A stretch of DNA of 64,000 nucleotides from Thermotogota bacterium. Lineage in GTDB: Bacteria; Thermotogota; Thermotogae; Thermotogales; DSM-5069. The position numbers and the translations under genes were made by a program. Where the stretch lies: contig JAKPGA010000012.1 in NCBI GenBank assembly GCA_029551145.1, positions 1 to 64,000 on the forward strand. Direction: 5' to 3'. The notes beneath the pieces are model-generated. The model was not told where the DNA came from, did not search any database, and saw only the letters and a program-made list of their open reading frames with translations. Of this stretch, positions 48,832-52,219 are shown piece after piece. Every line of letters begins with the position of its first letter. Positions within the stretch are counted from its first letter, which is position 1.

Positions 48832-49494
48832 TTAAAAGTTAAATCCACCTGTAGCTGGGTCAATCCAAGGTTTAATTCTCTGGAGTGTGATCGTTACAGT
48901 GCCTCTTCCAATATAGTTGCAAGCAGAGTTGCAGTTCACAACTTGAATCATGTTCCACAGTTTTCTTGAAATACCTCCGTGTAGATCTGCACTGTCTGGT
49001 ATGAAAATTCTTGCTTGATTCAACTGTTCTGCTGATACCATTTCTTCAATATCCTCTGGGAGATTACCTAAGCCATAGCCGTACCAAGCATCAACGGTGT
49101 CTTTCACATGGCTGAAGGTAGCTGCATAAGTCGGACTCTCAAAACCACTGAAGCTTATGACAATTTCTCCGTTGCTCTGGATGAAGAAGCTGATGCAGTC
49201 AGTTATATACTTTCCAGGTTTTCTGACATACCATGTCCATTTTGTTCCATCAAGCTGCCAGTTAATCCATTGTGCTACCTGAACCTCTGTCTCAATGTCC
49301 ACTGTCCAGTTCTGCTTGTTGCAAGAACCATTTGCTGCACCAGATTTGTATGCCCTTGCCTCTGCAAATGGATCTGTCATGCTCAGCGTTACCCATTCAC
49401 CTTCAACATCTTTCCAAACTGTTAATTGCGATGCACCAAAGATTGTGAGAGCAAAAGCTACGGTTAAGATCAGTAAAAGAACCACCTTTTTCAT
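48832..49494 (-). CDS. Secreted protein of unknown function, paralogue of the 49529-50593 product
   Basis: A 220-residue protein with a signal peptide (1-20, MKKVVLLLILTVAFALTIFG). The mature part begins SQLTVWKDVEGEWV and includes WYVRKPGKYITDCISFFIQS, EEMVSAEQLNQ and GTVTITLQRIKPWIDP, each of which has a counterpart in the upstream gene product. Several cysteines (NGSCNKQ, VVNCNSACNY) suggest disulfides or surface exposure. No named domain. GGAGGG precedes ATG 49494. A terminator follows its stop by about 45 bases. Confidence 0.75.
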   Translation of the reverse strand: MKKVVLLLILTVAFALTIFGASQLTVWKDVEGEWVTLSMTDPFAEARAYKSGAANGSCNKQNWTVDIETEVQVAQWINWQLDGTKWTWYVRKPGKYITDCISFFIQSNGEIVISFSGFESPTYAATFSHVKDTVDAWYGYGLGNLPEDIEEMVSAEQLNQARIFIPDSADLHGGISRKLWNMIQVVNCNSACNYIGRGTVTITLQRIKPWIDPATGGFNF

Positions 49495-49528
49495 GTGAAG
49501 ATCCCTCCTTCTAACCCCTTGACAGAAA

Positions 49529-50593
49529 TCATTTTCTGTCAACGTATGCCTTTGTGTTTTGAAGAGTGAAAGTTATTGTGCCCACGTTCTTGTAAATACC
49601 TGACGACTGAGTTTTCAGATCTACAAGCTGGTAGAAATTCAAAGATGATGAACCGGAACTCAGTGTCAAAACCATGCTGTTAAGACTCTGAGCTGTTATC
49701 CATTCAAAGTTACTTGGAAGATCATCACTTATCGTGTAGAAAACATCTATCTTTTCAACCCCTATCCCCCCTTGTGGTTGAAGGTTATCGAAGTTGCTGA
49801 ATGTGACAACAACAGGGTATGAACTGTTCACGCTTACTTCAAAGGCGTTAGTGGTGTACTTTCCAGGCTTTCTTATGTACCAGAGGCTACCCGTATTCGA
49901 GATCGTTACACACATATCTGAGGGAGGTTCACCTCCAGCCCACGCAGTCTCTTGCTGATTGCCTTTTTTCACTGAAAGATGAAGAAGTATGTATATTTTT
50001 TGACCAACCTGAGGGCATCTGTTCAGGTATGCGATCACATATTCATCTTCGCTAACAGCTGGGTTGTAGGTGCGTTTGTAAGGAAATTGACCTGGATTCT
50101 GATTGCCCGTTGGCTTTTGGTTGTCTATTTTCAGCTGTGACTGTTCCGCAAGCCATCCACCGATCAACTCAAACTTGATATGAATGTTTGAGTTGTCATT
50201 CCAAACGGTCGTGGTACCAATGTTGTAATTCTGACCAGCTATAACACCGTAATAACTCTTAGTTGTATTGTCCTTGATCTGGTATTCTATGTAGTAGTAC
50301 CACTGTGCTTTTGTCGTAACGGAACTTGAGGATTGTGTGTTCAAGCTATTGGACGGCTGAACAACAATTGTGCCGTTTATCCCCAAAGAAACAGATGAGT
50401 TCGACGTACCACTAAGCGGGGAAGAGATTACAACAACTTCTGATATATCTTGACTCACTCTTTGCCAAAGACCAGTTTCTGGATTGTATCTGTAAACTTT
50501 TGGGGAATAGGAAAGTGCGACTGTGGTTATGAGAATGAATAAGACCATTATCAACTCTCTAAATATCACCTTATCACTTAGAAATCTATCCAC
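49529..50593 (-). CDS. Secreted protein of unknown function, paralogue of the 48832-49494 product
   Basis: About 354 residues: an N-terminal hydrophobic segment (FRELIMVLFILITTVALSYS) followed by VYRYNPETGLWQRV, a Ser/Thr/Asn-rich stretch (about 55-95) and a C-terminal domain with WYIRKPGKYTTNAFEVSVNS, DVFYTISDDLPSNFEWITAQ and GTITFTLQNTKAYVD. The C-terminal third and the first mature residues are clearly related to the next gene's product. First gene of the operon. GTG 50593 is preferred to ATG 50599 by ribosome-site spacing. Possibly cargo or a surface component of the secretin system. Confidence 0.72.
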   Translation of the reverse strand: MDRFLSDKVIFRELIMVLFILITTVALSYSPKVYRYNPETGLWQRVSQDISEVVVISSPLSGTSNSSVSLGINGTIVVQPSNSLNTQSSSSVTTKAQWYYYIEYQIKDNTTKSYYGVIAGQNYNIGTTTVWNDNSNIHIKFELIGGWLAEQSQLKIDNQKPTGNQNPGQFPYKRTYNPAVSEDEYVIAYLNRCPQVGQKIYILLHLSVKKGNQQETAWAGGEPPSDMCVTISNTGSLWYIRKPGKYTTNAFEVSVNSSYPVVVTFSNFDNLQPQGGIGVEKIDVFYTISDDLPSNFEWITAQSLNSMVLTLSSGSSSLNFYQLVDLKTQSSGIYKNVGTITFTLQNTKAYVDRK

Positions 50594-50695
50594 CCCCATA
50601 ACCTCCTGGCATAAACTCTACCAAGAGTCTTGAAAACCTGTTGATAAACTCCTGATAATCTGCTAAAAATATACTCAAAATATGCTGAAAGACGC

Positions 50696-50728: not shown

Positions 50729-51997
50729 TTACACGTAAGCAGTCAGGTCAAACAATCCGTGGCCACTGAGGTTGAAAACGATTACCTTTTGTAGTTTTTC
50801 TTGCTTTGCCTTCTGAGCTTCTCTGATCGCGCCAGCGATCGCGTAAGAACTTTCTGGTGCCGGTACAATGCCCTCTAAGCGTGCAAATAACTTTGCTGCC
50901 TGAAAGACTTCGTCCTGATCCAATGCTATTGCTTGCACAAGGTTTTCTTTCACTAATCTCGAAACTATTGGTGCAGCTCCATGATATCGCAAGCCGCCAG
51001 CATGAATCTTTGGTGGTATGAAATCCTTACCCAATGTATACATCTTCAACAAAGGAGTCATGCCCGCTGTATCGCCGTAATCATACTCATACCGGCCTTG
51101 AGTCAATGATGGGCAAGCAGTCGGTTCACAGGCGAGAAGCTTGATATCCTTTCCGCTCAGCTTGTCTGGGATGAACGGCAGGATGGTGCCACCGAAATTC
51201 GAGCCGCCACCGTGACATCCTATCACCACATCGGGTTTTTCATTCAAAACCGCCAGCTGTTTCTTGATTTCCAAACCTATCACCGTTTGATGCAGAAGCA
51301 CATGGTTGAGCACACTTCCAAGGGAGTATTTTGTCTTCGAATCTGAAAGGGCAACTTCAATTGCCTCGCTTATCGCTATGCCAAGACTTCCTGGCATGTC
51401 ACCATTCTTCTCAAGCAAGGATTTACCAAACTTTGTTCGATCGCTCGGGCTTGGCACAACATCCCCACCGAAAAGTTTCATCAAATACTTGCGCATGGGT
51501 TTTTGTTCGTAACTAATCTTCACCATGAAAACATTCACCTTTAGACCAAACTTTGTTCCCGAGTAGCACAGCGCGCTACCCCATTGACCAGCCCCGGTCT
51601 CTGTGACAAGCCTTTCTGTACCAGCGATTTTGTTGTAGTAAGCTTGTGCGAGAGCAGTGTTCGTCTTATGACTACCCGTTGGGCTTGCACCTTCATACTT
51701 GTAATAGATCCTTGCCGGCGTTTGCAGAAACTGTTCCAAGTAGCTTGCCCTGAATAAGGGCGTGGGCCTGAAGACAGCGTATTCTTCAAGAACTGGTTCT
51801 GGAATCGGAATTTCTCGCCTATCGCTCACCTCTTGTTCGATCAAAGGCAGGGGAAAGATAGCAGCAAGCGCGTCGGGCGAGATAGGTTGTCTTGTCTTTG
51901 GATCAAGCGGAGGATCCAGTTTGAACGGAAGATCTGCCAAAACATTGTACCAGTACCTTGGAATCTCATTAACCTTCAAATCCACCCTGATTCTCAT
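50729..51997 (-). CDS. trpB2: Tryptophan synthase beta chain, TrpB2 (long) type
   Basis: A 422-residue PLP enzyme joining indole and serine to give tryptophan. GSHKTN (with the PLP Lys) at about 107-112, [16 protein letters not shown], the phosphate loop [11 protein letters not shown] and the C-terminal NLSGHG are all present. The extended N-terminus ([20 protein letters not shown]) and overall length mark the TrpB2 class, which often lacks a TrpA partner; T. maritima TM0539 is the example known. AGGAGGTGG precedes ATG 51997. It is preceded by a leader that reads as a tryptophan attenuator (52021-52219), and no trpA is adjacent. Confidence 0.95.
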
Positions 51998-52020: not shown

Positions 52021-52055
52021 AAATAAAAAGGGGCTCTCTTTGTTAAGAGAGCCCC
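52021..52055 (-). terminator. Attenuator terminator (3:4 hairpin) in the trpB2 leader
   Basis: GGGGCTCTCTT (52030-52040) and AAGAGAGCCCC (52045-52055) form a perfect 11-bp stem with a 4-base loop, followed on the minus strand by TTTTTATTT (52021-52029). It lies 24 bases before the trpB2 start, so it would end transcription before the gene. Confidence 0.93.
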
Positions 52056-52112
52056 AATTCGGTGTGACAAAACAAAAAGTGGTACTACCCCACCGAATCG
52101 GGGCAGTACCAC
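52052..52112 (-). promoter_or_regulatory. Mutually exclusive 1:2 and 2:3 (antiterminator) structures of the trp attenuator
   Basis: The 1:2 hairpin pairs 52079-52086 with 52105-52112 and 52088-52091 with 52100-52103. The alternative 2:3 structure pairs 52091-52103 with 52052-52064 over 13 base pairs (one G-U), which takes up the CCCC side of the terminator stem at 52052-52055. The two forms share 52091-52103, so only one can exist at a time. The Trp codons overlap the 1:2 arm, as in classic attenuators. Confidence 0.85.
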
Positions 52113-52168
52113 CACCATTGATTGTTAGAAACTGTAGCGTTGCTGGATACTCTGAACAACCTTCTCAA
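52085..52168 (-). CDS. trpL: TrpL-type leader peptide with three consecutive Trp codons
   Basis: TTG 52168, 9 bases after AAGGAG, opens a 27-codon reading frame ending TAG at 52085-52087. The peptide is MRRLFRVSSNATVSNN then QWWWYCPDSVG. The three TGG codons at 52109-52117 lie in the 5' arm of the 1:2 hairpin, and the stop codon lies in its 3' arm. Trp is otherwise very rare, so a triple run in a short leader directly before a tryptophan synthase gene is hard to explain by chance. A ribosome stalled there would free 52091-52103 to form the antiterminator. Confidence 0.88.
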   Translation of the reverse strand: MRRLFRVSSNATVSNNQWWWYCPDSVG

Positions 52169-52190
52169 TTCATTGCACTCCTTTTAAAAT

Positions 52191-52219
52191 ACTTTACACC
52201 TAAGATAACACAAAGTCAA
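52191..52219 (-). promoter_or_regulatory. Promoter of the trpL-trpB2 transcript
   Basis: TTGACT (52214-52219), 17 bases, TAAAGT (52191-52196) on the minus strand. The transcript would start near 52184, immediately before the leader-peptide ribosome site AAGGAG (52178-52183). Confidence 0.75.

Follow-up and report, generated by a model that had tools for sequence, protein, structure and literature searches.

A predicted tryptophan leader-peptide attenuator upstream of stand-alone trpB2 in Thermotogota

Architecture of the trpB2 leader

The window analysed here, the whole stretch of 64,000 nucleotides from a Thermotogota bacterium, carries on its minus strand trpB2 (50729..51997, ATG at 51997), which encodes a TrpB-like PLP enzyme of 422 aa (NCBIfam NF009057, 698 bits) and is the gene proposed to be controlled by the element described below. 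The product scores 672 bits against TIGR01415 (cut-off 519), compared with 155 bits against the TrpB1 profile TIGR00263 (cut-off 392). Also on the minus strand, at 48832-50599, are two adjoining genes of related sequence, apparently encoding exported products, which have no NCBIfam match and which both contain W-Y-x-R-K-P-G-K-Y motifs.

All parts of the leader are read on the minus strand. A sigma-70-like, promoter-like site, TTGACT-17-TAAAGT (52191..52219), agrees with the consensus at 9 of 12 positions, which is weak when taken alone, and its TTGAC is invariant in nine aligned members of the family. An SD-like GGAG lies 9 nt 5' of a TTG at 52168, where a leader peptide ORF of 27 codons, MRRLFRVSSNATVSNNQWWWYCPDSVG, begins, ending with a TAG stop at 52085 (52085..52168); in the family alignment the start codon is NTG, mostly TTG. 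Within this frame are three adjacent Trp codons, UGG UGG UGG (52109..52117), which are invariant in the alignment and are the proposed stall site. The run is not rare as a string, as TGGTGGTGG has 31 copies in the 2.1-Mb genome and each of the 30 others is covered by an open frame of 146 codons or more, measured stop to stop; because of these copies the Trp run by itself is weak evidence.

Folding predicts a hairpin 1:2 of 15 bp (52078..52113; 52113-52099 with 52092-52078), which includes the third Trp codon and the stop codon of the leader. Its CCCC/GGGG part is common to all relatives in the family, and the register of the outer arm varies by genus. Segment 2, GCCCCGATTCGGTG (52091..52104), can pair alternatively with segment 3, CACCGAATTGGGGC (52051..52064), the 3' end of which is the base of the 5' arm of the terminator; the 2:3 pairing comprises 14 bp, 52104-52091 with 52064-52051, one G-U among them. 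The last element is an intrinsic terminator 3:4 (52021..52055), with an 11-bp stem GGGGCTCTCTT/AAGAGAGCCCC (arms 52055-52045 and 52040-52030) followed by the T tail, TTTTTATTTT. The free energy of the leader fold is -63.1 kcal/mol, compared with -41.2 +- 3.9 kcal/mol for dinucleotide shuffles (z -5.6). Hairpin 1:2 also has a T-rich stretch, TTTTGTTTTG, on its 3' side (hairpin and stretch together 52113-52069), and a terminator scan picks it up as well; the family's other genera have not kept this T run.

A sequence-only reading of this DNA had proposed a promoter at 52191-52219, a ribosome site, a 27-codon leader at 52168-52085 with three adjacent Trp codons, and an 11-bp terminator with a T tail at 52055-52021 just before trpB2, all of which are found as it described them. 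Its claim that the structures exclude one another also holds, in that the 14-bp 2:3 pairing overlaps both hairpin 1:2 and the terminator. Two details are corrected here. Hairpin 1:2 exists, and its 5' arm holds only the third Trp codon and two bases of the second, not all three codons; the alternative pairing likewise exists and is one G-C pair longer than the 13 bp first given.

Conservation and covariation across the phylum

TrpB2 was found in most of 103 Thermotogota genomes, and 67 trpB2 loci had readable upstream DNA, a few others being truncated at contig ends or lying outside the set that was read. Of the 67, 57 combine a Trp-run leader with a terminator and a 2:3 pairing, and these come from nine families (f1-f3 and f6-f11). 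An alignment of these upstream regions had been suggested by the earlier reading, which would have been contradicted by relatives lacking a conserved Trp run or the antiterminator pairing; both features, the pairing with covariation, are present in the 57 loci. The run is WWW, extended to WWWW in part of f2 and altered to WYWW in one locus. All 57 leader frames are short and end ahead of the terminator near trpB2. The peptides are otherwise dissimilar, for example NNQWWWYCPDSVG in f1, NNWWWISPPI in f3, VWWWNSGNCPPPLLW and FWWWWTTGGCPP in f2, MFWWWSCPFGGG in f9 and AWWWYDRYFGRT in f8, and the Trp run is their sole constant part, the remainder varying freely by family.

For each locus we determined the best pairing of the RNA after the Trp codons with the region around the 5' arm of the terminator, terminators being located by a scan with a strict T-tail requirement; one locus (L133) was assessed by eye. 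In 54 of 56 loci the 2:3 pairing was better than that of mononucleotide shuffles (p <= 0.014). Of the two others, L106 has a weaker pairing (p 0.12) in an unchanged register, and the pairing of L157 falls outside the narrow search window, a wider one giving 10 bp. Segment 2 usually starts at W+12 to W+16, counted from the first Trp codon (W+13 in the window), and segment 3 overlaps the 5' arm of the terminator by 4-10 nt.

The sequence of the 2:3 helix differs by family, from GCCCCGATTCGGTG/CACCGAATTGGGGC to CCCCCGATCTG/CAGATCGGGGG, CGGCAATTGTCC/GGACAATTGCCG, CCGGTATTTTGGC/GCCAAAATACCGG and AGCCCCTTCA/TGAAGGGGCT, and between 3 and 6 pair types are seen in each of helix columns 1-9. Within the family of the host, segment 3 changes from GAATTGGGG to GAATCGGGG with pairing retained. 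When one locus was taken from each of 23 genera and partners were swapped between genera, segments paired with their own partners at -28.4 kcal/mol and with permuted partners at -17.7 +- 1.0 kcal/mol, and none of 20,000 permutations was as low; related genera share motifs, so that kinship is not wholly removed from this comparison. An alternative pairing that covaries in this way is, as judged from sequence, the signature of an attenuator.

This conservation bears on whether the leader is an element at all. The hairpins could constitutively terminate an upstream transcript or serve as a processing site, the leader ORF being a chance frame, and the 31 genomic copies of TGGTGGTGG and the terminator-like appearance of hairpin 1:2 with its T-rich tail both point that way. 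We consider this the least probable of the explanations weighed, and extremely unlikely. The small ORF and the structure are not readily ascribed to chance because they are kept, with covariation, in 57 loci, and only two of the 73 trpB2 loci examined outside the phylum have a WWW leader upstream. A terminator of upstream transcription is argued against by the conserved promoter-like site, which sits directly 5' of the leader, so that the element belongs to trpB2.

It may also be asked what selects the structure, given that a terminator with an antiterminator looks alike in any attenuator. A protein or ligand (a TRAP-like protein, a riboswitch or a T-box) might make the choice, the small ORF being incidental. 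Against this, the 57 loci preserve the in-frame Trp run, the nearby stop codon and the set distance to segment 2, and the RNA sequence around them varies. Searches of Rfam gave no riboswitch, T-box or leader match at the site and no T-box in the window or the genome, and reading of the sequence showed no run of GAG/UAG triplets of the kind expected for TRAP. A selector of this kind is thus quite improbable.

Predicted mechanism of the switch

The locus has every feature by which ribosome-mediated attenuation is defined at the level of sequence, and trpB2 is very probably controlled by a leader-peptide transcription attenuator of this type. With ample charged tRNA-Trp, the ribosome would reach the stop codon within hairpin 1:2 and cover segment 2, whereupon terminator 3:4 would form and transcription would end before trpB2. 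If Trp runs short, the ribosome would stall at the first Trp codon with its edge just 5' of segment 2; segment 2 would then pair with segment 3, depriving the terminator of its GGGG base, and RNA polymerase would continue into trpB2. Without translation hairpin 1:2 would form and termination would be the default. We infer that termination falls and read-through rises as charged tRNA-Trp falls, and the switch would turn on indole salvage under Trp shortage.

The geometry of the leader agrees with this proposal. A ribosome with the first Trp codon in its A site covers approximately 12 nt past the start of that codon, and therefore a ribosome stalled there is expected to leave segment 2, which starts at W+13, free. 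In the model a stalled ribosome frees segment 2, and one at the stop codon covers it. In simulated folds of the element in the window, placing the ribosome at the stop codon left a fraction of 0.85 of the terminator bases paired inside the terminator, compared with 0.46 when it was placed at the first Trp codon; the part lost upon stalling was the GGGG/CCCC base of the terminator, which adjoins the T tract. Across the phylum a simulated stall at equilibrium clearly removed the terminator base in only 22 of 56 loci, so the equilibrium fold is only partly informative and was rejected as proof of switching. The fold largely keeps the terminator despite the stall in the other 34, and because equilibrium favours the terminator there, the outcome at these loci would hang on the order of co-transcriptional folding. 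Folding order is also held to decide the outcome in classical attenuators.

Besides the equilibrium folds, points counted against the attenuator are the TTG start codon of the leader, the weakness of the promoter by consensus, the absence of the element from the best-studied relative, the genus Thermotoga, and the fact that Thermotogota are not known to couple transcription with translation.

A leader that senses Trp could also act mainly on translation, or its peptide could act in trans like peTrpL of Sinorhizobium; the literature describes a trp leader peptide that acts in trans (PMC7298713). Evidence against this reading is the T-tailed terminator near the gene in which the conserved structure ends, together with the free variation of the peptide sequence, apart from the Trp run, from family to family. 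We regard such an output as highly unlikely, and transcription attenuation remains the preferred reading.

The mechanism proposed is the classical one, and it is the phylum and the stand-alone target that are new, so far as the open literature shows. The trp attenuator of E. coli (trpL; RF00513) resembles the element in having a leader with adjacent Trp codons, pairings 1:2, 2:3 and 3:4, and the same geometry of stall site and segment 2. It controls trpEDCBA, whereas the element here precedes a single stand-alone trpB2, and the peptides are unrelated save for Trp, with three Trp codons in the Thermotogota leader (four in part of f2). The Rfam Trp leader model RF00513 gave no cmscan match at the gathering score or at E <= 10. 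T-box leaders and TRAP in Bacillota likewise respond to Trp or tRNA-Trp through a choice between terminator and antiterminator, but without a ribosome stalled on a Trp-codon leader before the controlled gene. In Chlamydia, trpRBA (TrpR, YtgR) similarly combines Trp synthase genes lacking the full pathway with Trp-dependent control, but there repressor proteins act on trpBA, in contrast to the switching of leader-peptide stems proposed here (PMC7755916).

Trp attenuators predicted in Actinobacteria (Corynebacterium, Streptomyces) share the double or triple UGG run, the antiterminator and the terminator (PMC1262725). The nearest statement that we found is the attenuator predicted before trpB2A of C. 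diphtheriae, membership of the TrpB2 subfamily being taken from the gene name (PMC1262725); that gene lies in a trp operon with trpA, and the conserved motif gGCC-rGCy-GGCC given for the actinobacterial attenuators differs from the motif here (PMC1262725). The open literature, most subscription journals lying outside the search, yielded no report of a trp attenuator in Thermotogota, in agreement with the earlier reading, which knew of no such element; in its available text a survey of Rfam leaders names Thermotogales for other motifs only (PMC3766115).

TrpB2, the tryptophan pathway and the distribution of Trp leaders

The physiological role of the TrpB2 family is disputed. TrpB2 reportedly has high affinity for indole and uses O-phosphoserine (PMC11917138, citing Hettwer and Sterner 2002 and Busch 2014), a role as serine deaminase has been predicted from phyletic patterns (PMC1854888), and the NCBIfam entry TIGR01415 is still a hypothetical equivalog. 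In profile searches of the host genome (94.6% complete) there was no trpA above cut-off and no match to IGPS, to the TrpE N-domain or to PRAI; the TrpE profile also misses the trpE of another genome of the phylum (G002), so that failure to find TrpE counts for little by itself. Within the genus, trpA and IGPS are likewise missing from three other genomes, each 99% complete. The host thus appears to have no recognisable trpA, trpC, trpE or trpF, and for this reason TrpB2 probably joins scavenged indole to serine or phosphoserine, giving Trp.

A Trp-codon attenuator spread across the phylum, in many genomes without the rest of the pathway, would be independent evidence that TrpB2 supplies Trp, since a predicted Trp-sensing leader in nine families suggests that the cells treat TrpB2 as a source of Trp. 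We lean towards a history in which the attenuator already preceded trpB2 in the ancestor of Thermotogota, TrpB2 is a principal Trp-regulated Trp synthase of the phylum and not a serine deaminase or a side enzyme, and the element was lost in Thermotoga and its sister genus, which have a full trp operon. If this is true, leader-peptide attenuation is an old device of a phylum for which we found none described, and indole salvage is the role of TrpB2 where the pathway is missing. The elements would extend classical leader-peptide attenuation to Thermotogota, and they offer 57 natural examples of attenuators that covary, many of them from thermophiles.

Trp leaders are also found at other loci. 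Besides an attenuated trpB2, genome G002 has a second, independent WWW attenuator on a complete trp operon (L161, G002:C1, 2431-2730), with a terminator and a strong 2:3 pairing (-33.0 kcal/mol, p 0). In five f10 genomes (L223, L224, L225, L226 and L227) leaders ending NWWWHL or NWWWHLG precede trpE and are followed by two tandem terminators; no Trp leader was found at the trp operon of the genus Thermotoga. Outside the phylum, Trp-run leaders with terminators lie before trpB2 at L025, L055, L023 and L045, the genome labels including Actinobacteria (L025) and Melioribacter, and L025 and L055 have a plausible 2:3 antiterminator (p 0.008 and 0.002). WW leaders at L010, L019, L034, L050, L054 and L061, also outside the phylum, were set aside because the terminator is lacking or the antiterminator is unconvincing.

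The attenuator is absent from all eight loci of Thermotoga and its sister genus, and these eight genomes retain trpA and trpC and keep the trp operon. It is also absent from two f2 genomes with rearranged loci, in one of which (G011) trpB2 lies close behind another gene and in the other (G013) behind unrelated DNA. In most of the order the attenuator is confined to genomes without a trp operon, but this was rejected as a rule because G002, G021 and members of f8, f10 and f11 possess the operon as well as the attenuator. In these genomes the attenuated trpB2 is accompanied by other trp genes, so that a missing pathway is not a condition for the switch. In one genome of the Thermotoga group trpB2 is in separate pieces approximately 1.3 kb apart, as if by insertion (G036:C1:121937-124302), and a genome with an intact attenuated trpB2 also carries a decayed second fragment of the gene with stop codons (G009:C1:1952345-1952688).
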